Shown here piece by piece: positions 2,321 to 49,324 of a stretch of 64,000 bases of DNA. Numbering within the stretch: position 1 is the stretch's first letter; each line of letters begins with the position of its first letter. The notes beneath the pieces were generated by a model. The model was given only the letters and a program-made list of their open reading frames with translations. It was not told the DNA's origin and did not search any database. The position numbers and the translations under genes are program-made. Source of the DNA: Diplonema papillatum (taxonomy: Eukaryota > Euglenozoa > Diplonemea > Diplonemida > Diplonemidae); the NCBI GenBank assembly GCA_030068145.1, contig JAPJBO010000363.1, positions 124,001 to 188,000 on the forward strand, given 5' to 3'.

Positions 2321-3118
2321 ACACCTTTTTTTGCTGGTCCACGTAGCAGACCTTTTTCGGCGTTTTTTTGCTCGTGATCAGCTCCGATGAAGAGATCCGC
2401 AAAACATAGACCCGGATATCCAAAAAAATGTGCAAAGATCTCGCATTTTGGGGGAATTGTCGCATCTGCTTCGCATGGGGTGAAGGGCTGACACGGGCGA
2501 AGAAATAGGTGCATATTTCTTTTTTGACGGGTTCAAATGTTCTGTCAATTTTCCTGCGTCCTTTTTTTACTGTCGAGCCCCAGTTTACTCCAAGTACAAA
2601 ACCCTCAAACCCCCTATGGACGTGCAGTTTTGAATACGAAACGTGTTAGCTTCAGGTCCGGGGTGGTTCTTAATTAACACGTTTCGTATTAAACCCGTTT
2701 CGTACTAAAAACGTTTCATATCACCCATTCCACGAAAAAGTGTCACAGATTTCGGCTTTTTTCGGATTTCTGCCGAAAATTTCCATCTGCAGGTCCGAAA
2801 ATGGTCGGTTTCGAGATTTTGAGGACACGTTTGAATCCGTTGAGGACAGGGCTTTCCGAATATTTGGTCGGATAAAATTTTTGACCGACCCCCCCCCCGG
2901 AAATGGAGGTCGGCACCCGAAAAAATGGGGTCCTGGAGATCGGTTTTTTTTCTCTCTGCATCCAGGAGGGGGTCAGATTTTGATCGCTGGGCTAGCTGGC
3001 AGCTTGCCCATAATCGCGCATCCCAGAACTACTCGAAAACCAAAAGATTTCCCAAAAAGACCTCGAAAATAATTTCCAGACGGCTGCTTTTCACACCGAA
3101 AAATCGCAAAAAAAAAAA

Positions 3119-3190
3119 TTCGGACCGGGGGAATCGAACCACGGCCTACAGGGGCCCAGGAGGGTGCGGTAACCGTTAGGCTATGTTGCC
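3119..3190 (-). ncRNA. tRNA-like Pol III unit inside the TIR element (left)
   Basis: On the minus strand, TAGCCTAACGG (3183-3173) fits the A-box consensus and GGTTCGATTCC (3140-3130) fits the B-box consensus exactly. A minus-strand oligo-T run (A run at 3108-3118 on the plus strand) follows at once and could terminate Pol III. The acceptor and T stems do not pair well, so this is probably a tRNA-derived promoter unit rather than a functional tRNA. Both boxes are identical in the copy at 48863-48916. Confidence 0.6.
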
Positions 3191-3396
3191 AAACCTCGGG
3201 CCAAAATTCGCTTTTAGCGCCTGCTCAGTTGGAATTCTTATCGGAAAGTGCGAGATCGTCATTTACTCGTTTCCAGTGTCCCAGGACGGTATTTCTGCTC
3301 TCTCAGAGCTTATTTCGCCCGGTTTGCGAAGAACTCAAAATGAGTCCAAAATTCTCACTCGGTAGTGAACAAAAAAAATTTCCGCCGTTTTTTTAG

Positions 3397-3475
3397 CCCA
3401 TGGTCCAGAGGTTACCACACCCACACAGGGGTTTGTGGGTCGGTGGTTCGATTCCTGCCGGAAATCGTTTTTTTG
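3397..3475 (+). ncRNA. tRNA-like Pol III unit inside the TIR element (right)
   Basis: TGGTCCAGAGG (3401-3411) fits the A box and GGTTCGATTCC (3445-3455) is a perfect B box. TTTTTT at about 3469-3474 lies 14 bases after the B box and could terminate transcription. The unit points away from the left unit, so the two would be transcribed outward. Both boxes are unchanged in the second element copy (48590-48644, minus strand). Confidence 0.6.
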
Positions 3476-3689
3476 GGTTTTTGAAACAGCCCCAAAACCG
3501 ACCTTTTGTCCATCTGCACGCCAGATTTTGGTCGCCACGCGAGCTGATTGCTTGCCCATAATCGCCAGGGATAGCTCTTTCCATCCCAAAAAAAATTTCC
3601 CAAAAATTCCAAAATTTTGACCCAAAACGGGCTGCTTTTCAGACGGAAAATCTGTGACACTTTTTCGTGGAATGGGTGATATTAAACCC

Positions 3690-6457
3690 GCATACGGTAG
3701 TTTCAAAAGTTGTCGTATATGTCCGACGTAGGTTCAAAGTTGTCTTATATGCCCGACAAGGTCTGACGACGGTGGACGACGTGAGGCTGCGAGTTCTCCT
3801 GCTGACCGCGGTTCGAAGGGCGCACGCTCCTCTGGTGGGTTTAGGTGCGCCTACAGGTGGTCACACATAAACTCCACCCCACCTTGGAGAGAATAATAGT
3901 ACTAACTGTAATGGCGACGGTGGACGAGGTGCGGCAGGGCTGCGAGTTCTCTGGACTTCTTCAGTCATTGGCCCTCGTTCGCATGGGTTTGACAACAGAA
4001 CACATGCAAGCTGCTCACAGCCGGATAACATTGCACACGGACGGTTGAATTTGAGGTAGCGAGCGTTGCCGAACGAGGAGAAAAAAAAAAAGAGAAAAGG
4101 AATTTTGCATTGACCCGTAGAATTCGTGCCCACACGAAGGAGCAAAAAAATCAGGGAGAAAAAAAATCCAGGGAGGGGGGGGAAAAAAAGAAAACAGCAG
4201 GCTTCAGCAGGTATTCAGTGGGAGAGGACCTCTGTTCGCCCCCTACACGGCCTACACGGTGAGGTCCAACCTCAGAGGCTGGAGGTAAAGAGGGTGTGCC
4301 CGAGTCACACCCGAAAAGCGGGTGTGCTACAATCATAATGCGTGTAAATCCACACCCGAAAAGCGGGGGTGACACCCGCTTTTTTTACTCCAGCTTTCAC
4401 TCCAGCTTCTGAGGCTGGGCTTCACCGTGAAGGGAGGCCGCGAGGCCTGGCCACGGCGGAGTCTCCAGCCTCAGAAGCGGGGAGCGAAGCCGGGGGCGGC
4501 TACATCCGCAGGTTGTAGCCGGGGGGTGAAGGTACGATGTTTTCGGATAGCGACGGGGCTACTAATTAAACCTTGTACGCACAACAGTGGGCTAGGTATT
4601 CGTCGGATATCATGCAGGGTCAAAACCTTGTGTCTTTTTGGAAATGGCCAAAATTTTATTTCCAGAAAAAAATGGGTTTTTTGAATTTTAAAAGTTTGGA
4701 ACAAACTCTACAGTAATTTTTGAGGAAGTTGAGCAAATTTTTTTTTTTCCAAAAAATTTTTTTAGGGCTCCATCGGCCCTGCGGGAGCATTTTCAAAAGA
4801 CACAAGGTTTTGACCCTGCATGATATATCAATCTTCTGAGATCTGCGATCGTATACGACAAAAAAAACATTTGCATTTGCGCGCGTTTTGATTCGTAGCC
4901 CCCCCTGCGGTGGGGCCGGGCTTGAGTCGGGCACCACCACCTTCTGAGGACGGACTCCGCTGTGTGCGCTACCGGAGAGGGGGGTCTGCCAGGTCTGTCG
5001 GTATTATGAGGGAAAACGCTGCGAAGGCGATCTGCTGGAAAAGAGAAAAAAAAAAGAAGGAAGAAGAAGAAAAAGAAGAAAAAAAGGCAGGAAACACGTG
5101 AAAGAGAAGAAAAAAAAAGGGGGGGGGGGGGGGGGGGGTCGTGGAGTCCCCCTTTCTACGTATTTTTTCTTTTTGGTACGCCGGGAGGGGGCGGGGGAAA
5201 TCTTAATCTTAATTCTGTTTAGACAGGACACTGCCTCTCTGGGGGGAAGCCCCGTAGAGGGAGAGCACATCAGGTGTCCAGGGCGCGTGGTAGGGGTGTT
5301 CGCCAGTAGCCGGATCGCCCGGCAGAACTCTGCGGTACCAAACGGTGCCGACGAAATGGCAGCCTCCGAATCGGGTTGGCGTTGACGGCGTCACAACCGG
5401 CCGATCACGCTGCACACTCCCCAACCCTGGCGGGGGGACCAACTGCTGCCTGTCGTGGTGCCCTGCTTACCGAAGCACCTGAAACGCATGCGTCACATTC
5501 CTACAGTGTATCCCTCAATTCACAGACGGGAACCTGAAGAATACATCACCCCCGCCCATCGAGAAAAGGGAAGAACACGTGCACGGTGGACAGTCGCACG
5601 TTCCAAACCCGGTTCGTCCTGCTCCACGCACGCATCACGTGCCAGGATGGCCAATCGAGGCGTGGCAGGCGCGTGTCAAGACACCGCCGCTCCTGGGCGG
5701 TCTAAGCCGTGCGTTTTCTTAGACTGTTTTTTCTTGTGTTACGCGGGCGGCTTTCTTCTTTTTTTCTTTTCTTTTTTTGAAGTCTCTGTTCGACGTGCGC
5801 GGCGGATTCTTTCTTCTGTTTCGCCTTTTTTAGAGCGCCCGATCCGAAACTCCCAGGTGTGGGGGAGACGTTCCGGCTTTGTTGAAACAAATGCGCGTCC
5901 TTTACTGATCCGAAAGTAGCCCGGGATTCCGGTCTTAAGGAACCCGCGTGATGGTTCAGCTGGATATGTTCCCTTTGCCTGCGAATCCAGTAAAGGGGTC
6001 GAATAGTAACAGTATTTTGACACGCGGCTGGTTGTCTAAAACCACTACCACTATTTGATGGCTATCCGCAACTTTTTTTAGTATTCGACCCCCCCCCCCT
6101 TTACCAGGAGAACGAGGGAAGGAATTTGGCAGGATGGTTGCAACAAGGTGGTCTTGACCAACAGCCGACTACACAAACAAGAGGTGAAAGCAGTCAACAA
6201 ACAAAACAACAACAAAAAAGGACTGCAGCACGAGAGAAGAGGGGGGGGTGTGCAAGGGGGGGGTGGAAAGGAAAAAAGGAACTCTTTTGGGTTTAGACTA
6301 TTTTGGGGTTTCCTTTTATTTTCTTGTTTACCTTAGCTTAGGTAACACCGTAACACTAAGAAGCAGACGACGGCCGCACATGTAGCACCGACATCGAGAA
6401 GACGAGAAGCGGAGTGAGGGCAGGCCCCAGGAGCAGTGAGAGAGGTGTGCGGATCAA
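3690..6457. other. Repeat-rich spacer without a recognised gene
   Basis: This holds homopolymer tracts (A runs near 4081 and 5047, a G run at about 5119-5138), copies of a hairpin-prone motif around CACCCGAAAAGCGGGTGT (about 4307-4380, inverted relative at 16524-16556), and a possible F4 trace at 5221. Frames on both strands are low-complexity or lack protein-like character. It lies 3' of the BFR1-like gene. Confidence 0.5.
4607..4826. repeat. 220-bp element with 32-bp perfect terminal inverted repeats
   Basis: ATATCATGCAGGGTCAAAAC at 4607 continues to CTTTT at 4638 and returns as its exact reverse complement at 4795-4826. The interior is A/T-rich and non-coding. The structure is MITE-like. 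No second copy is seen in the window and no clear target duplication was found. Confidence 0.65.
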
Positions 6458-21144: not shown

Positions 21145-24100
21145 TCAGAGGAAAGCCGCGTCCGCAATCGATGGAATGGAGCCCGAGAGAGACGCGGACA
21201 AGAACAACGGAGGCACGAGATGCTGTTTGTCAGCCAACCTGCGAGCGACGCCCGCCACGACCGCGTCCCCCTCTGCGCGGGCCATCAAGAGCGCCGAATC
21301 CGCGGCGAAGAAAGCCTTCTCGTACTCAGTTCCCCAGGCCCAATCTTCGGGGACGTCGAACACGAATCGATCCCGCAGGAGCAAGGTCCTGACCTCATAA
21401 AACACGACCCCCTCCCTCTCGTCGACGGGCCGCAGCAGCCCTTCGTACCGCCGGTCGTGCGCCAGCGTCAGGTGTCCGGGAAGCGACGCGGCAAGGCACC
21501 CGATTCCTGTCGTTTTTTTTTTAGAGTTAAAGTTCGCTTGAAATTTCGGGGTTTTAGGGTCTCCGTGTGACCGTTCATGAATGGATTCTCTTTGAGCAAG
21601 AAAGGACTATGTGGTTACGGGTTGTATATTTAGTGCACGCTTTCGTTATGGGTTATGGCTAGCCATGTCCGGGACTGTTTGTGACCGACACCAAGTACAT
21701 TTTTCGTGGAGAAATGTTGGGGACGGGACGGTTTCCCTCGTACCTCTCCCCCTGACTACTAGGACTAATTACGACTACGAACTGGGGGCAGCAGGACACC
21801 TTGTCCAGGTAGCGTCACCTCCCCGATGCGAGCTGATTGCCGGTTGGATGCGGGCAACTGCACCTTTGTACCACCGACATTCTCTGGGTGCTTCCAGGTT
21901 AGGCGCAATCGGGGGTTTGAAACATGATAATTAACCCCTTACCGACCAGCGACCTCCACCGGGGTCGTTAAATAGCCCATTTCTCAGATATGCCGGAATG
22001 TTGGGATAGGTGTTCGAAAACAGCTTTCAAGGGCGGGAATGAAAAGACATGTATAGCGTATCTCTTTATTCCCGCCCTTGAACCTCGGAAATCCCGCTCC
22101 CCCCTCGAGCAGTCGACAAGGTGCCAACCTGACATGACCAGGATTTAGACCCAAACCCCGGAAATCCCGCTCCCCCCTCGAGCAGTCGACAAGGTGCCAA
22201 CCTGACATGACCAGGATTTAGACCCAAACCCCGGAAATCCCGCTCCCCCCTCGAGCAGTCGACAAGGTGCCAACCTGACATGACCAGGATTTAGACCCAA
22301 ACCCCGGAAATCCCGCTCCCCCCTCGAGCAGTCGACAAGGTGCCAACCTGACATGACCAGGATTTAGACCCAAACCCCGGAAATCCCGCTCCCCCCTCGA
22401 GCAGTCGACAAGGTGCCAACCTGACATGACCAGGATTTAGACCCAAACCCCGGAAATCCCGCTCCCCCCTCGAGCAGTCGACAAGGTGCCAACCTGACAT
22501 GACCAGGATTTAGACCCAAACCCCGGAAGTCCCGCTCCCCCCTCGAGCAGTCGACAAGGTGCCAACCTGACATGACCAGGATTTAGACCCAAACTCCCGG
22601 AAGAAAGTCGAGGGCGCCCGGTCGGTATTGGGTTAATACCAAAAGCCCGCACGCACGCGGCGTTGACTGTGGCTGGTCTTTGCAAGTGCTACTTTGATCA
22701 AACTCACACGAAGCTGAAACCACGAACCCTATTCCGACGGGGCACCTCCAGATTAATTCTGGGTTTTCTGTGATGGGGTACTGCGAATAGAGCGATTCAG
22801 AATCCCAACTCCGACCAAGCACCTACAGGTTGATTTCCCTCACTTCCCACTTTGTTTACTGTTCAATTTCGTGGGTTGCCTCCACTCGTTTCGGCGTTCT
22901 GGGGTTGGGATTCCACGATTTTCGAAGCACATGTCCTCCAATGCCGCCCGTCGGAAGAATCGACATGCCCACATTCTCACAATATTCTTCAAACTTCAAT
23001 CTCATCGATGTGGACACTGGATTGATCCCAAAAGCAAACCTGAGTTTCGAAGCGCCGAGACGGCTGCCTCTGCGACGTGGACGGAGGATCCCATGGTGAT
23101 GACGTAGGCCTGCGTGCGAGCCATGATGCTGCCGAAATCAGTGGGTCCCGTGACGACTGCGATGCCGTGCATGTCTTTCCACTGAGTGCTCCGCAGGTAC
23201 TCGGTCAGCATCGTGAGGCACCTGACGGCGCTGAGAAGATGCGCTGAGCAGGGCTTCGAAGCGTTCCAAGCCCCAAGGATGCCGCTGCCGGACGCCGACG
23301 CGAGAACGCCGCCGGTCCTGTGAATGTAATCAGCCGACAGCAACAGGACAGTGCTCAAAGAGTCGACCGAAGCTGGGCCAAATGATCGCAACAGGCACAC
23401 AGTCGCTGACCCACTACGCATGTGCGTCGAGACGACGGTCGAGTCGTCGATTGTAATGGATAATGGTTCCGACGGCAAGGTATGCTGATTCCCGAGTTCT
23501 AGCTCGGTTGTGGGTTCAGCCGGACGATCGAGGATGAAGCGGCGAGCAGCGAGGGACATCGGGAGAAGGAAGTAGATGTTGAACGGCTCGGCGCAGCCTT
23601 TGACGGCGTGCTTCCCCTGCGACATGATCAACGGCAAATCCGCACTCCACGCGTCGAGGGCCCGGTCGACAACTTCCGACGTGGCCGCTATGAACCCGCC
23701 GACTGCCAAATGCTCGACTCTCGCCGCGACGTTGACGGTGGGTCCGAAGTAGTCGGTCCTGTTCGGAAGGGGAGGGTTTGCTCGTATTGTCTGACGACAA
23801 CTGCCAAGAAGGTTGAAGTATGGGTAAAGATAAAGTGGGTGTCACCTGAGGGGGTAATATCAGGTGACAAAGCCGTTAAACACTGGGAACGTTTAAGTAC
23901 ACGGACCACACGGATCAGCATGCAGTGCCGCTAAGCAGCGGCTACCTTTTATACATGCGAGTCTTTTATTCCCTGAACATTTAGACTTTTTTTTGAAAGT
24001 ATCACCCAGTCCCCGCCCACTGGATCAACTAGCCAGAACCCCCCCACAGTAACAACTCACCTGCCGAATGCACCGGTCCCGAAAATGGATGATGCTCAAG

Positions 24101-27056
24101 CGATCCACCCATAGTTGGCCGCGTACTGGTATCACAAAGCCAGGCGTGCGTTGGAGTGCATGGTCCACGCCGCGAAGTCGTTGGCGTGAGCCTCGATGGA
24201 GCGTGGATGAGAGCAGATCTTGGTTGTAGTAGCGAATATTCAATGGAGAACATTGAACAACCGGTAGTTGCTTGCCCCAGACACCGGAGAGTGCAGCTAG
24301 AGTGATGTGGTTGCAGATCAACCCCGGTTTCCCGAGTCAACCTGGCCTGGCCTGCATGTGTCGAACGTGTGCTTCCACTGCTGGAGATGTGCAGAAGCTG
24401 CCAGAGGCAGCCAGAATGAGGCTGAAAATGGTCCCCTCTACGTCTTGAGGGGCAAGCGGGCCCTAGAACGGGCCAATATGCACGGAAACGGCATGAAAGA
24501 CCCGCAACGCTGCCGAGGAGGCCCCAAGCCCCCACAACTGCGGGGTGTGTTTAGAGAACCAAACAGCTGGGAGTAAGACTAACAAGCGACAATAGGCAAG
24601 AAACCCTCACGCAATCACGCAATGACCATCCAGGCCCCTCCCCGACCACCCTCACACCATCCAGAAAATGAACCAAACAGCTGGGAGTAAGACTAACAAG
24701 CGACAATTAGGCAAGAAACCCTCACGCAATCACGCAATAGCCATCCAGGCCCCCGACCACTCCCCACTCTCACACCACCCAGAAAATGAGAGTGCTGGCC
24801 ACCTTGTTGGACGAGCCCCGGGACTGTCGAGAAAGTTTGCGCCTATTGTGATGAAGTGGTTGACTAGGCCCCCACGAAGCCGTATACACAACACGGCTAC
24901 AACACGGTTACAACACGGCTACAACACGGCTACAACACGAGGATGCGGCTCTGCTTAGGTGTGCACTCAGCCATCATCCGGCCATTGGCTGCTAAGCACC
25001 CGACCGGTCGATTTGCCACTTTTGTGGCCCTCTATTCGCCGGGCGGTGCTGTCAGCACTTGTTCCGCGTCGCTTCAAGTACATGATGCTGGCGGTTGGGG
25101 GATCGGCGACCGTGACTCAATTTAGGTGCGGTCAACAGGGTCGCCACGTGAAGGCCCCCCCCCATGACACCCGGGTTCATTCGAAAGAAAAAGAAGGAAA
25201 TGCGTGGTTTAAAAAAGAGCAAGGAGTGCGCAGGTTCGTTGAAAATCGTACACCGCGAGAGTAGGAGAAAGTAGAAAGGGAAACTAGAGGTTTCGTTGAC
25301 CGCACTACCCAGAGCCCAAAATCCTGGACGTGGTTTCAGGTGGCAAACTTGGCAAATGATCATGATCAGAAGGTCCTACGTGGGCGGTTCAGTTTCCTCA
25401 CACATTGCGTGTGGCTAAAGAAAAAAAACAGAAGACAAAAATACTCGAGGGACTGCCTTGTGCTCATTTCGAAGGAGGCTAAAGGGAGAAAACAATACAA
25501 CTACAAAGCGGGTCTTTTTTAGAGTTATAGTTCGCTTGAGAATCCGGGATTTTAGAGTCTCCGGGTGACTTACGTCGAATGGGTTCTTTTAAAGAATTAA
25601 AATTTTTGTTGAACGCTTACGCCCGCCACTAAACCCAGATTTACCTGTGTTTCGTGTGGGCTACAGCACATTTACCTCCTTTGATCAATCGCAACTGGCA
25701 GTCTCCTCAAGCATTTCCTACAAAGCGGGTGCTTATACAAAAAAAAAAAAAAAGAGTGGAGCACCTGTTCGTCAACGGATTTTTGTGAGTCTGCGCGGGC
25801 CCGCAGTGGGCCCCGATCCGAACGCGGAGCCCGTTCCACACGCAGCATTCGTCGACGAGGTCCATGGTGTCCATCTCCGCCGTTTCGTCGCCTTCTGGGA
25901 CCAGCACGTCTATCGGCCAGCACGAGTCGCACAGCTCTTCTTGCGCCGTGAGGGCGAAAGCGACCGCGTGTTCTGACTTCTCGAAGGCTATCATGAATGC
26001 ATCGCCTATCGTCTTCACCTCGTATCCACCATATGCATAGCAAGCCGAACGTATCACTTCATCATGGACCACCAGAGCGGCGGCCATCGAATCAGGATAG
26101 AGCTCCCACAAGCGAGTAGAAGACTGGATGTCGGTGAAGACTAGCGTCACGTCTCCACTGCCAGGCGGTTCTGTTTCAAGCATGCGCACCATCGCTAAGT
26201 TCTTCTCGACGGTGCTGAGCCGCGCCGCGGTTTGGATTTGCTGGACCAGCGACTCGGGGAGGTACCGTTTGTACTTCCGCAGGTTGTCGAGGAGAGAGGT
26301 GAACGACCGCTGCAGGCCTTCGGCGTGCTTGCTGTCGACGAGGTGCTCTGCCTCGTTCAGATCGAACCGCGACAGCGCTTCCGTGACTTCGTGCACGAAC
26401 TCGACGATCGTCCGCACTTTTTCTTTCTCGCCCTCCAGCTGCCACGCGAGTCGCCGGGAGCTCAAAAATCCGATAACCAGCACCCCCGCAGCCTCGCCGG
26501 CTTCGACTACTAGCTGCTTGACGGGGCGGCACGGGAGTCTATCGCAAGAAGTGACGGCATCTCTCCGCTGTTCCTGGCTTAGCAGCCCGGGCGCGTCGGT
26601 GAGGCCGAAGCTGAACGTCAGCTCGAAAAACACGACGGCGGTCCACATCAGGCTGACCACCAGCACGTGCTCGGGCCGCACCTTCGTCTTGCAAATGACG
26701 AGGACGTCGGAGAGGACGAGCAGCAGCGGCCACGACCGCGCGGCGGAGTGGGAAACGGCGGCCAAGTCGAACACCAGCACGGCGGCGACGTACAGCACCA
26801 TGACGGTGTGGATGACGGCGGGGGGCATCTGCTTCGTGGACAAGAGGTAGACAAGCGTCGTTCCGCTGCCGGCGCCGACGAAGACGAACCCGACGCCGGT
26901 CATCAGCGTCGCGTCCACGAGCAGGAGGCAAAGCAGCATCGCGCAGGCGCCGCACGTGGCTGCCAGCATCACCAGCTTCCGGGTGTACTGCAGCTCCGAG
27001 TCGTACGGGGTTAAGAACAGCCGCAGCAGCCGGTTCCAGCAGAGCCGGGTGAGCAT
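21145..27056 (-). CDS. Membrane-bound class III adenylate cyclase, three exons
   Basis: Exons are 27056-25765, 23758-23040 and 21506-21145 (phases 2, 1, end), giving 790 aa. Six hydrophobic segments lie between residues 28 and 200, then a linker with KYKRYLPESL (261-270). The catalytic domain has both metal aspartates (D309 in FTDI, D352 in KTIGD), the adenine-specifying pair K348 and D433 (TDYFG), and N440/R444 (NVAAR). All key residues for an active adenylate cyclase are present, so it should make cAMP from ATP at a membrane. A second cyclase-like half follows (STVVSTHMRSGS to VHVAEAAVSALRN) without metal ligands, then a C-terminal RRYEGLLRPVDE...EDWAWGTEYE segment. This layout resembles euglenozoan cyclases known to me. 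Exon 3 could splice onward to an unseen exon. Confidence 0.85.
21519..21720 (+). repeat. R1 repeat at the 3' end of cyclase intron 2
   Basis: TTAGAGTTAAAGTTCGCTTG starts at 21521 and continues through GGGTTTTAGGGTCTCC to TGTTTGTGACCGACACC. Read with the gene, the R1 end CTCTAAA lies 13 bases before the exon 3 acceptor at 21507/21506. It closely matches 55403-55600. Confidence 0.8.
22078..22600. repeat. 73-bp satellite, about seven copies, in cyclase intron 2
   Basis: The unit contains CCCCGGAAATCCCGCTCCCC, CCTCGAGCAGTCGACAAGG and TGACATGACCAGGATTTAG. The copies are almost identical (one AAATCC to AAGTCC change near 22530), which suggests recent expansion. Each unit has an internal CTCGAGCAGTCGA inverted motif. 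An open frame through it exists only because 73 is not a multiple of three, so frames rotate. Confidence 0.95.
23815..23945 (+). repeat. F3 repeat near the 3' end of cyclase intron 1
   Basis: Landmarks are GTAAAGATAAAGTGGGTGTC, ACCTGAGGGGGTAAT, AAGTACACGGACCACACGGA and AGCATGCA with AAGCAGCGGCTACC. Other F3 pieces are at 6865-6955, 27228-27300, 48045-48090, 57918-57980, 58376-58470 and 63240-63370. Here it ends about 57 bases from the exon 2 acceptor. Confidence 0.75.
24557..24785. repeat. About 112-bp direct duplication
   Basis: AACCAAACAGCTGGGAGTAA followed by CCCTCACGCAATCACGCAAT occurs at 24557 and again at 24668, with matching CACACCAYCCAGAAAATGA ends. It is inside cyclase intron 1 and non-coding. 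A 12-bp tandem repeat (ACACGGCTACAA, four copies) follows at 24889-24940. Confidence 0.85.
25432..25735 (+). repeat. F5 repeat with a nested R1 at the 5' end of cyclase intron 1
   Basis: F5 begins at ATACTCGAGGGACTGCCTTG and ends at TTCCTACAAAGCGGGTGC, 30 bases from the donor at 25764. It is split at 25517/25606 by an R1 insertion (AGAGTTATAGTTCGCTTGAG to GGGTTCTTTTAAAG). Unsplit F5 copies read straight through this point (CTCTTTTTTGTTGAACGC at 36584), so R1 inserted into an existing F5. Confidence 0.8.
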
Positions 27057-27393
27057 TTTGCCTTCCGTGCGCTGCCAGCCCACAGGGGGCGCTCCCGCGG
27101 AGCCGGTCTTGTTTCCCCCCTTTCTTTTTCGAGGAGCGGTTTGTGTAAAGACGGTCAGACCCTGTCGGTCTTAACCCCTGAAGAAATCGTTTAGAAATAG
27201 GTTATGGGAAGAGCGTTGAAGGATCGTTAAAGATAATACAGTGGTGTCACCTGAGGGGGGTAATCTCAGGACCGCCCACGAGATAGCCAATTGTACTTGG
27301 CACAAGCTTTCGAGGTGCAAAACGAGCAACATTGCACGGGGGAGGTGGTGTCAATCATCTGTACCTTTCACAGCATCACTGAGGGGGCGAATC

Positions 27394-41700: not shown

Positions 41701-42839
41701 ACCTCGACGTACTCTCCCGCTTCCCCAGCCCCGATCACTCCGGATGCCGCACGCTGCTTTGGTGTTCCCACGCTCGTGGAAGAGACCCCCTCTTCTTCGG
41801 GTACAAGCGAGCTGCCACTCAACAGCTTTGGTGTTCCGAGGCTCGTGGAAGGGACATGATGTGCTGCCCTTGCACCGGCGTGTTTTCCCGACGGCGAGAT
41901 GTCGACAGACTCGACTTCTTCGGTCTCATGCTGCGCGACCAACGGTCTTCGTTTTCTAGGCGAGGCGTGGTCCGCCCTTGCACCATCGTCGTATGCCGCG
42001 AGTGGCGGGGTGCCGGGTCTGGTAGAATTGACAGCGGGACCAGCCCGTTTCTTCTGCGCACGACGTGCAGGCGAGGCGCGACCTGCACCGCCGTGGTTTT
42101 CAGACGACACGGTGTCTGCTTTGGCCGCTTCTGCGGCTTCGAGTCGTCCGCGAGATGCAACCAAAGACTCGGAGGTTCCCGGCCGGCCCTTGTCAATCGG
42201 CATCGCGCAGGATGCGGAAGACTCGCGGTCGTTTGAGCAGCGTCGCTCGGGTTGCAGCGGCAATGCATCAATCACAGCGGCGGCACAACTCCCCGTTTCT
42301 GCGGCTTCGAGTCGTCTGCAAGAAGCAACTACTGACTCAAAGGTCCCCGGCCAACTCTCGTCGATCGGCATCGTGCAGGATGCGGAAGACTTGCGGTCGT
42401 CTGAACAGCGTCGCTCGGGTTGCAGCGGCAATGCATCAATCACAGCGGCGGCACAACTCCCCGTTTCTGCGGCTTCGAGTCGTCTGCGAGAAGCAACTAC
42501 TGACTCAAAGGTCCCCGGCCAACTCTCGTCGATCGGCATCGTGCAGGATGCGGAAGACTTGCGGTCGTCTGAACAGCGTCGCTCGGGTTGCAGCGGCAAT
42601 GCATCAATCACAGCGGCGGCACAACTCCCCGTTTCTGCGGCTTCGAGTCGTCTGCGAGAAGCAACTACTGACTCAAAGGTCCCCGGCCAACTCTCGTCGA
42701 TCGGCATCGTGCAGGATGCCGAAGACTTGCGGTCGTCTGAACAGCGTCGCTCGGGTTGCAGCGGCAATGCATCAATCACAGCGGCGGCACCACCCCCCGC
42801 CTCTGCGGCACCGCCCCTCTCCGGCCCCCACAGCGGCAT
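38709..42839 (-). CDS. Voltage-gated (Kv-type) potassium channel with very long N- and C-terminal regions
   Basis: A single open frame of 1376 codons starts at the first in-frame ATG (42839); a stop precedes it. Six transmembrane segments lie at about 845-1090. S1 contains LSLVAILAS, S4 near 941 has five or six regularly spaced positive residues (RVLRVVRVARVFRLLK), and the pore ends with the potassium filter TVVGYGDD near 1050. An S6 with AIPASVFGS follows. The N-terminus has four 56-residue repeats (about residues 18-241), then about 600 residues of Ser/Pro-rich, probably disordered sequence. The C-terminus (KHQANKQRTDAIVAV onward) is unlike known Kv tails. It should pass potassium across a membrane on depolarisation. 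A GTATGC donor at 38807, in phase after codon 1344, suggests the last 32 codons may be intron and that another exon exists. Confidence 0.85.
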   Translation of the reverse strand: MPLWGPERGGAAEAGGGAAAVIDALPLQPERRCSDDRKSSASCTMPIDESWPGTFESVVASRRRLEAAETGSCAAAVIDALPLQPERRCSDDRKSSASCTMPIDESWPGTFESVVASRRRLEAAETGSCAAAVIDALPLQPERRCSDDRKSSASCTMPIDESWPGTFESVVASCRRLEAAETGSCAAAVIDALPLQPERRCSNDRESSASCAMPIDKGRPGTSESLVASRGRLEAAEAAKADTVSSENHGGAGRASPARRAQKKRAGPAVNSTRPGTPPLAAYDDGARADHASPRKRRPLVAQHETEEVESVDISPSGKHAGARAAHHVPSTSLGTPKLLSGSSLVPEEEGVSSTSVGTPKQRAASGVIGAGEAGEYVEVTLSSSSAQHAGCGGVYRASPARARAWVLQNGAFTLARCCAGPGSGAYAWAIAPAGDAGSDLLRRGTVLLREDSADHARQPWDVMRWVDGRTAEAVDLVVCEAEVGTAHPKTSEEEEETIDFVRVSHFEPSPVDPFLRGESTDPQCPRRRARRQGSQPSTIAGETPLGICLVPTCERMESIDSIAVTLSKGVSCSKPFSSAAEPEVVPSAPRKSEARSQRVRAFQDVLRGDPAPVDCGLGQSLLSLNSSQKRPLSAFRSNLPSPFEPAGGCEQAISASLDRSARSLSSLGSWRGNRLSGAYTSGRLSQKQPSLLSVAALRKCGVELASWSKESSSRPFNTTFPCSPPLSISSQNSGSWPDDPLRPAAGMHPAAPRERHRRMSAWSSERQETPQADWSYNVRSSASIEGSLPHSSAGRRRSCAQSVGAPGGTGEALGSGQPDTPENGEVTCRQSIHETLEDPTQSRCGKLIAGLSLVAILASTITLCVETLPRYQAQSRRNEGPWFYLETIFVTFFSLELVVRLWAAPDRIAFVKNVLNALDFVAVLPYYVELIIGSSSDASGLRVLRVVRVARVFRLLKVARYADGLKLIVVVMGQLGDVLILVLFVAMISLLLWSSCLFFIEGVSISTFDAANETWIREDITSLYGEDEYSPFQSIPATFWWCISTITVVGYGDDVPYSPAAKFLASMAMVSGTFIIAIPASVFGSTFLAEYQRKTECRIKAKHQANKQRTDAIVAVLHHLSTASLFGSDEDPHVDYDALMWRMLWDDAYAGKAVRLWEQRGRGGERCFAGFAKELATAVRWKKRAEPRCHYSVGPPGVENLLWSSARHASVGGQSGASDEMPQPNSDGTAHSFRQARQASFRALFLDRSRSSDPLCRSGSMAKSVTSRMSFRHSASHPPAFFPGGSDAVIDRLLRLPPSQTRLASFGVSSACTPSAELKPAEEIKLSPPPEVILIPATSCGESVCSFYFCWTSTFVRTTTCGDTNASFCSSNLRS
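42115..42786 (-). repeat. 168-bp coding tandem repeat in the potassium channel gene
   Basis: Four units of exactly 168 bp (56 codons) have anchors at 42261, 42429, 42597 and 42765. Each encodes ALPLQPERRCS, SASCTMPID and WPGTFESVVASRRRLEAAE. The outermost unit, farthest from the N-terminus (42115-42282), has diverged (ASCAMPIDKGRPGTSESLVA). The others differ at a handful of bases, so the array expanded recently. It keeps the frame. Confidence 0.95.
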
Positions 42840-48366: not shown

Positions 48367-49324
48367 CACCCATTCCACGAAAAAGTGTCACAGATTTTCC
48401 GTCTGAAAAGCAGCCCGTTTTGGGTCAAAATTTTGGAATTTTTGGGAAATTTTTTTTGGGATGGTAAGAGCAATCCCTGGCGATTATGGGCAAGCAATCA
48501 GCTCGCGTGGCGACCAAAATCTGGCGTGCAGATGGACAAAAGGTCGGTTTTGGGGCTGTTTCAAAAACCCAAAAAAACGATTTCCGGCGGGAATCGAACC
48601 ACCGACCCTCAAACCCCTGTGTGGGTGTGGTAACCTCTGGACCACGGGCTAAAAAAACGGCGGAACTTTTTTTTGTTCACTACCGAGTGAGAATTTTTGG
48701 ACTCATTTTGAGTTCTTCGCAAACCGGGCGAAATAAGCTCTGAGAGAGCAGAAATACCGTCCTGGGACACTGGAAACGAGTAAATGACGATCTCGCACTT
48801 TCCGATAAGAATTCCAACTGAGCAGGCGCTAAAAGCGAATTTTGGCCCGAGGTTTGGCAACATAGCCTAACGGTTACCGCACCCTCCTGGGCCCCTGTAG
48901 GCCATGGTTCGATTCCCCCGGTCCGATTTTTTTTTTTTGCGATTTTTCGGTGTGAAAAGCAGCCGTCTGGAAATTTTTTACGAGGTCTTTTTGGGAAATC
49001 TTTTGGTTTTCGAGTAGTTCTGGGATGCGCGATTATGGGCAAGCTGCCAGCTAGCCCAGCGATCAAAATCTGACCCCCTCCTGGATGCAGAGAGAAAAAA
49101 AACCGATCTCCAGGACCCCATTTTTTCGGGTGCCGACCTCCATTTCCGGGGGGGGGGTCGGTCAAAATTTTTATCCGACCAAATATTCGGAAAGCCCTGT
49201 CCTCAACGGATTCAAACGTGTCCTCAAAATCTCGAAACCGACCATTTTCGGACCTGCAGATGGAAATTTTCGGCAGAAATCCGAAAAAAGCCGAAATCTG
49301 TGACACTTTTTCGTGGAATGGGTG
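48367..49324 (-). mobile_element. 958-bp TIR element with tRNA-like units, copy 2 (inverted)
   Basis: It is about 98 percent identical by eye to 2722-3678, in the opposite orientation, with the same 31-bp TIRs and ATAT on both sides (48363-48366, 49325-49328). Pol III boxes are intact: the minus-strand unit has its A box at 48644-48634 and B box at 48600-48590; the plus-strand unit has its A box at 48863-48873 and B box at 48906-48916. High identity implies recent movement. Confidence 0.85.

Follow-up and report, generated by a model that had tools for sequence, protein, structure and literature searches.

Introduction

Pol III promoters within mobile DNA are already known from SINEs and from a few LTR elements, and so is the habit of certain retroelements to seek out tRNA genes. 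tRNA-derived SINEs carry A and B boxes at tRNA spacing, Cassandra TRIM retroelements hold a standing Pol III promoter of the 5S type in their LTR and, among the DNA transposons, the Chapaev/CMC group is known for short derivatives of high copy number. The hallmarks of the latter, according to the sections of its description covered here, are CAC...GTG termini and a target duplication of 3-4 bp, which takes the form of a 3-bp TWA in the Chapaev3 subgroup (PMC4079192). Dada elements likewise link DNA transposons with Pol III genes in that they insert into small RNA genes, producing duplications of 6-7 bp, and two of them (Dada-U6 and Dada-U1) are described as having no terminal inverted repeats (TIRs) (PMC3706591). 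Besides, several retroelements (Ty3, TRE5, NLTR-A) insert tightly upstream of tRNA genes. TFIIIB is bound by the integrase of Ty3 and by the ORF1 protein of TRE5-A, and the insertion sites of NLTR-A, a non-LTR element, are found 2-6 bp in front of the mature tRNA sequence (PMC5911963).

Here, we describe a transposon family (family A) from the diplonemid Diplonema papillatum, present in two copies in a 64-kb window, i.e. the whole stretch of DNA that was analysed (C363:124001-188000), and traced throughout the genome (271,365,524 bases in 2910 contigs were searched). Family A shares the A and B boxes at tRNA spacing with tRNA-derived SINEs, yet has TIRs, a fixed 4-bp duplication and two divergent units, and lacks a retro tail; Cassandra differs from it as a Class I element with a 5S-type promoter and LTRs. 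Short, high-copy derivatives are what Chapaev/CMC and family A have in common. The CAC...GTG termini and the duplication length of family A match the Chapaev hallmarks, whereas its 4-bp N-TA-N duplication departs from the 3-bp TWA of Chapaev3, and the sections of the Chapaev description covered here mention no Pol III units, as against two in family A (PMC4079192). Judged by its ends and the 4-bp duplication, the family may belong to Chapaev/CMC. Unlike Dada, which targets small RNA genes, family A carries Pol III units inside, and it has 4-bp duplications and TIRs (PMC3706591). The retroelements found within family A land within a few bp of a type 2 Pol III unit, on its upstream side, much as NLTR-A does; they differ from Ty3, TRE5 and NLTR-A in targeting another transposon, and in a diplonemid host (PMC5911963).

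A search of the open-licence PMC literature by title and start of abstract retrieved no DNA transposon with standing Pol III units, in line with the original prediction, which named no described family of such layout. A Harbinger-derived protein acting on a 7SL gene was considered as a precedent and set aside for its different layout, as far as the covered part of that source describes it (PMC11893794). In the sections covered here, the D. papillatum genome paper names 211 tRNA genes as well as TATE, MULE and Helitron proteins, and no such element (PMC10161547), and MITE-like elements have been proposed as a source of diplonemid introns (PMC12621601). What sets family A apart from other DNA transposons with CAC/GTG ends is the presence of Pol III promoters in its terminal modules.

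Results

The window element spans positions 2722..3678 of the plus strand (957 bp), starting with CACCC and finishing with GGGTG, i.e. with CAC...GTG ends. The perfect 31-bp TIRs that had been predicted were found at 2722-2752 (plus strand; CACCC..., inverted-repeat search and genome pattern matches) and 3648-3678 (minus strand; ...GGGTG, inverted-repeat search), and the 40-bp arm pair at 98% in the inverted-repeat search is made up of these TIRs, the palindromic ATAT and some flank. The ATAT seen on both sides (2718-2721 on the left, 3679-3682 on the right) proved to be a true target site duplication when end pairs were compared: exact 4-bp flank duplications of the pattern N-TA-N were present in 33 of 34 distinct end pairs from the window and the loci examined (20 ATAT, 6 ATAC, 2 ATAG and one each of TTAT, GTAT, GTAC, ATAA and CTAT), and the single exception (L054) pairs the ends of two different repeats. 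Empty sites, for which the element flanks were joined and searched against the loci examined, were recovered for L003 (in L071, 200/200 bases), L050 (in L074, 99.5% over 196), L002 (in L011, 98% over 167) and L048 (in L047, 96.5% over 200); they complement the duplication statistics as evidence for the left ATAT. From the TIRs, the 4-bp target duplications and these paralogous empty sites, it follows that family A moved by DNA transposition and is a DNA transposon.

The second copy in the window lies on the minus strand at 48367-49324 (958 bp), again between ATAT flanks, and its four boxes (48590-48600, 48634-48644, 48863-48873 and 48906-48916) are all exact, just as the original prediction had it. 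The longest stop-to-stop frame across this copy amounts to 220 codons. Family A shows the properties of a MITE (TIRs, a constant short duplication with empty sites, high copy number, uniform length and no evident coding capacity), and it departs from a SINE by having TIRs and a fixed duplication and by the lack of a poly-A or simple-repeat tail.

Hairpin-forming inverted repeats occupy window positions 2627-2712, immediately left of the element; Rfam matches around the element (mir-722 at 2627-2712, and others) were far below their cut-offs and were discarded. Elsewhere in the window, the minus strand holds a frame of 1388 codons that includes an ion channel domain (PF00520; 38709-42875) and inside which a 168-bp tandem repeat is found at 42125-42809, and an adenylate/guanylate cyclase domain that is split across two frames (25707-27170 and 23002-23841).

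Two Pol III-type units point outward from within the element. Unit 1 is on the minus strand, with its A box TAGCCTAACGG at 3173..3183, its B box GGTTCGATTCC at 3130..3140 and an oligo-T terminator of 11 T on that strand at 3108..3118. Unit 2 is on the plus strand, with the A box TGGTCCAGAGG at 3401..3411, the B box GGTTCGATTCC at 3445..3455 and a terminator of 7 T at 3468..3474. All boxes are exact matches to the consensus. This corresponds to the layout of a type 2 Pol III promoter, namely A box, B box, tRNA spacing and T-run terminator, and the distance between the starts of the two boxes (43 and 44 nt) is close to that of a real tRNA-Gly (42). Exact A+B pairs at tRNA spacing occur four times in the window, all of them within the two element copies, as compared with a mean of 0.00 and a maximum of 0 in 100 dinucleotide shuffles of the window; throughout the 361 kb examined (partly overlapping), they were confined to these elements, a tRNA-Gly (L035/L036) and a SINE-like stretch (L013). 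Since the T-runs follow the units within the element, transcripts would stop inside it, and the whole-element transcription of the SINE type is not seen, as both units end at internal T-runs.

ARAGORN reported no tRNA in the 64-kb window and recognised none of six units from subfamilies A, B and C as a tRNA, and Rfam gave no tRNA match either in window 2600-3800 (E<=10) or in the element loci L044, L078 and L080 (E<=5); the control tRNA-Gly in L035 was recovered by both tools. Of the two outward-facing tRNA-like units originally proposed, the boxes, the spacing and the T-runs therefore stand, and the tRNA fold, sought with ARAGORN and Rfam, does not.

Genome-wide, the TIR pattern at <=3 mismatches matched 471 forward and 487 reverse ends, against none for the reversed control pattern. 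Part of these 958 ends belong to relatives or fragments and not to family A copies, so that the family numbers some hundreds of copies. A genome search with the element returned 1134 candidate copies, of which the 40 scored were all near full length at 98-100% identity, and uninterrupted copies in the loci examined span 940-962 bp. Private substitutions were counted in 46 family A fragments (>=97% identity, >=150 bp; contained ones removed, five two-allele columns set aside), and at only ~0.5% outside the units they identify family A as young, i.e. recently amplified. At C46:460785-461148, four right-type ends of family A stand in tandem, spaced 111 bp.

As for the fate of the units in single copies, unit 1 was intact in 18, unit 2 in 17 and both in 16 of 19 distinct complete, uninterrupted copies. 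Copies lacking the units had been named beforehand as speaking against a tRNA-carrying element, and what we found were three copies with a damaged unit. Faster decay of the units, named alongside, was borne out overall, private substitutions being 1.6-fold more frequent in the units than in the rest (46/5991 versus 104/21435 cells, p 0.013), but this excess was confined to CpG columns (13/744 versus 8/2742); in non-CpG columns the rates were alike (33/5247 versus 109/20759, p 0.35), and the boxes alone (9/1353 cells) were not different either (p 0.32). Substitutions in CpG columns are thus ~6x denser in the units of the element (2718-3682) than elsewhere in it, possibly through methylation or shared minor alleles. 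The faster decay speaks mildly against a functional reading of the units, and because they change no slower than the rest within family A, there is no sign of selection on single copies to keep them after insertion.

Subfamily B was recovered by a search with TIR variants alone, in which the boxes were ignored, and comprises five complete (L078, L080, L082, L083, L086) and four partial copies (L070, L079, L084, L087). Its outer 100 bp are 96-99% identical to family A, whereas inward the identity drops to 47-67%. Boxes and terminators are nonetheless arranged alike in three subfamilies. The left unit of B (minus strand) has the B box GGTTCGAGTCC and an A box with one mismatch in all seven loci showing it, and the right unit (plus strand) is exact in six of the eight loci showing it and damaged in L079 and L086. 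T-runs follow the B units, that of the plus-strand unit of L083 being interrupted, and between the good units there are a further unit, whose B box has two mismatches, and, by eye, a lone B box.

The 11-bp segment of the unit 2 B box is kept at 11/11 in four of the five complete B copies (9/11 in L086), and the segments flanking it are 50-61% identical. Between the window copy and the B copy L080, the constant box positions of both units agree at 29/30 as against 86/139 other positions (Fisher p 5e-5), the degenerate box positions agree at 8/14, and for unit 2 alone the figures are 15/15 versus 44/70 (p 0.002). On alignment, the boxes of unit 2 are thus kept in subfamily B while their neighbours diverged to ~60%, and such retention amid diverged surroundings suggests that the units work. 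Unit 1 is less straightforward. Since its surroundings align poorly, it may have been swapped in B and C for another tRNA-derived unit instead of being kept by descent, in which case the agreement of its boxes would mirror the donor. Either way, a unit is present at the place of unit 1 in B.

Two further TIR variants were set aside. In 13 of 16 loci examined for the second variant, the end is embedded in a repeat, often along with a 119-bp tandem (L064-L069, L071-L077; genome-wide, 68 + 70 places fit the pattern, A or B elements being among them); in L003, family A itself is inserted into this 119-bp-tandem repeat. The third variant partly (L054, L081, L085) lies inside the 3' region of a LINE, and in L045:6359-6831, L054:474-897, L081 and L085 this LINE 3' region terminates in a transposon end like that of subfamily B. 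A LINE may therefore have captured part of this transposon. The same TIR core with a different inner sequence was matched twice, in a scan able to catch about a quarter of random ends of this sort.

A coding relative was identified in L044 (C82:329423-333222), a 3800-bp element with the same ends, ATAT duplications and exact boxes in both units. Its identity to family A is 86.7% on the left and 95.8% on the right, and its centre of ~2.9 kb between the units holds two ORFs on the minus strand (554 and 332 codons), which overlap in different reading frames. Neither product (P0001, P0002) has a Pfam match below E 0.05. For P0002, there was no PDB match at E<=10, the best PHROG match (E 0.016) is a family of unknown function, and an AlphaFold2 model computed without alignment reached a pLDDT of 35. 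Searched against the genome, P0002 found itself as the only perfect match, along with 25 matches of lower score. Ten of these score nearly equal, at 39% across residues 3-154, and belong to frames that are 313 to 1013 codons long; several others reach only the Cys-rich C-terminus of P0002. By eye, P0002 contains Asp motifs like those of DDE enzymes. P0002 is thus a likely transposase candidate, and ORFs of the L044 type may encode the transposase of the family. Long TIR pairs in L042, L043 and L045-L054, considered as autonomous partners, turned out to be family A copies with nested inserts; the insert in L042:708-4085 has a TIR of its own (TGAGACTTAGCTA...) and encodes a Cys-rich stretch 39% like the P0002 C-terminus. 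A relative of P0002 at C59:271259-271735 and a family A end at C59:274940-274970 are 3.2 kb apart, a pair that could be a second coding element or due to chance.

The nested inserts were informative in another respect. In family A copies of L009-L062, we counted 23 breakpoints (L042, L043 twice, L045, L046, L047, L048, L049 twice, L050, L051, L052, L053, L054 twice, L061, L013 twice, L014, L021, L027, L034 and L062), leaving out L044 with its different centre, the subfamily B loci and the locus-end fragments of L053, L058 and L059, and counting once a copy present in several loci (e.g. L049 with L009 and L010). Some loci had been chosen partly for widely separated ends, irrespective of insert position. 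With element position n corresponding to window position 2717+n, seven of the 23 breakpoints (L043, L045, L049, L050, L053, L054, L014) fall at 475-487 (3192..3204), just upstream of unit 1, that is, into 13 of 957 bp (binomial p 2e-8, or ~1e-6 allowing for 74 windows). Six breakpoints are one-sided and could be truncations (L013 at 663, L014, L021, L027, L054 at 480, L062), two of which (L014 and L054) sit in the hot spot; L013 and L014, probably two ends of one copy, are counted as given. A second insertion point is found just upstream of unit 2, at positions 663-674 (3380..3391; L054, L013).

Five of the seven hot-spot inserts carry a reverse transcriptase (RT) domain and three of these an APE endonuclease as well: those of L045 and L053 are LINEs with APE, RT and RNase H domains, that of L054 has APE and RT in the stretch examined, that of L050 RT and RNase H, and that of L049 RT. 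The inserts of L043 and L014 are shorter and have no domain match. The L043 insert is closely related to a part of that in L050, and L050 and L054b share one stretch at 68%. Of the seven, L045 alone is opposite to unit 1; the other six run in the direction of the unit, five of them with the 3' side visible at it. Where both sides were clean (four cases), the duplications measure 4-6 bp, and the edges of the L045 insert are at 480 and 510. Genome-wide, an exact A-B unit is preceded at a distance of 4-24 bp by the end of an A10+ run in 74 places, some resembling duplicated segments and hence partly non-independent, versus 2 at 104-124 bp. Six distinct places were readable: three at unit 1 (one of them L049), one at unit 2, for which the element's own A-run may account, and two resembling ordinary tRNA genes.

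Not all clustering sits at promoters, as two more groups of breakpoints show: four in a C-run at 172-181 (L046, L049/L010, L061, L034), at a good distance from the boxes, and another four at 382-396, inside or close to the unit 1 T-run. Inserts starting with TACTC lie in this T-run in L048, L051 and L052 (positions 385-396, at the 3108..3118 terminator) and possibly represent a terminator-seeking element family. L061 contains a 337-bp insert with a tRNA-like head, as judged by eye.

The LINE upstream of unit 1 in L053 (L053:644-9538; C173) has a spliced leader at its 5' end and poly-A at its 3' end, and therefore looks like a reverse-transcribed, trans-spliced RNA. A 22-nt piece of the D. papillatum spliced leader had 342 + 303 genome matches at <=1 mismatch, and the reversed control none. 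These 645 places exceed the 110 spliced-leader genes reported in the covered part of the genome paper (PMC10161547), an excess that may partly stem from retroelements carrying the leader at the 5' end, as at least one (that of L053) does.

Discussion

Our data support family A as a MITE carrying Pol III units. TIRs, 4-bp duplications and empty sites, together with the presence of both units in 16 of 19 copies, bear out the tRNA-carrying MITE of the original prediction, with the reservation that the units consist of promoter and terminator only. The option it had put forward alongside, in which a DNA element captured a SINE dimer, is at odds with the same place and outward direction of the units in subfamily B and in the 3.8-kb ORF-bearing relative, from which we conclude that the units are part of the two terminal modules; such a capture may have occurred long ago, when the family arose. 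That a Pol III retroelement of the SINE type merely resembles a MITE is scarcely credible: the A and B boxes would be accounted for, but the constant 4-bp duplications and empty sites contradict it, the TIRs are perfect, a poly-A tail is missing, and Pol III RNAs would stop inside the element.

tRNA genes serve as boundaries in other systems. Taking the lines of evidence together, we think that family A is a young, non-autonomous CAC...GTG DNA transposon whose outward-facing Pol III units are probably used in vivo and would help it to persist. Each terminal module contains an internal (type 2) promoter and its own terminator, pointing outward; TFIIIC/TFIIIB and Pol III would bind the units in vivo and produce RNAs of roughly 80-90 nt that end inside the element. 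As the tRNA shape is not kept, it would be the binding or the act of transcription that matters and not a tRNA product. Most likely, the units would aid persistence by forming boundaries of chromatin or transcription, which would hold open the DNA lying between them and at the ends amid host genes presumably co-transcribed in long clusters, with D. papillatum genes likely being co-transcribed in groups of up to 100 according to the covered part of the genome paper (PMC10161547). The transposase would probably be supplied by a coding relative like the 3.8-kb L044, in which the same two units flank two ORFs. More ambitiously, and with considerable reserve, we propose that the divergent units might be standing functional parts of the terminal modules, which flank the transposase gene in the coding form, are kept in the miniature one and act both as portable boundaries that separate the element from polycistronic host transcription nearby and as a landing platform for Pol III-seeking LINEs.

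Several alternatives deserve consideration. An ancestor could have acquired a tRNA-derived sequence, from a SINE or a tRNA gene, whose promoters, active or decaying, brought no benefit while the ends drove the spread. Extra decayed units in subfamily B would be expected of such a passenger, the units of family A change no slower than the rest and faster at CpG columns, and SINE-like inserts with tRNA heads exist in the genome (e.g. L013, perhaps L061). We nevertheless regard it as somewhat unlikely, given that unit 2 kept 15/15 constant box positions in B next to neighbours at ~60%, that place and outward orientation are alike in A, B and the ORF-bearing relative, and that most complete copies still hold both units. 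The boxes might also bind TFIIIC without Pol III transcription, in the manner of extra-TFIIIC boundary sites, which would suit the retention of boxes but not of the tRNA fold. T-runs, however, follow the units (that of L083 being interrupted), and the hot spot for insertions lies where TFIIIB would sit, whereas the extra TFIIIC sites of yeast are not Ty3 targets (PMC5911963), making this reading very improbable.

The hot spot upstream of unit 1 suggests, by analogy with the tRNA-gene-seeking retroelements, that the units recruit the Pol III machinery. It could alternatively reflect the taste of an endonuclease or open poly-tracts, and sequence preference would agree with the four breakpoints in the C-run (172-181), which is remote from the boxes, as well as with the four located in the A/T run at 382-396 or close to it. 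Against this, several unrelated retroelements use the unit 1 spot (though L043b and part of L050 are close relatives), the unit 2 spot differs in sequence, and poly-A runs occur at equal distance from other A-B units, including two readable ones like ordinary tRNA genes. A mere sequence preference therefore seems improbable to us, and we retain the recruitment of Pol III factors by the units as the preferred explanation.

D. papillatum is transformable, gene replacement being mentioned in the covered part of the genome paper (PMC10161547). If our interpretation is true, family A would join Pol III-promoter mobile DNA with the retroelements that seek tRNA genes, and it would offer a natural test of TFIIIC/Pol III sites as boundaries in a genome that is read as long gene clusters. 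More generally, the finding suggests that transposons can hand out landing sites for other transposons.
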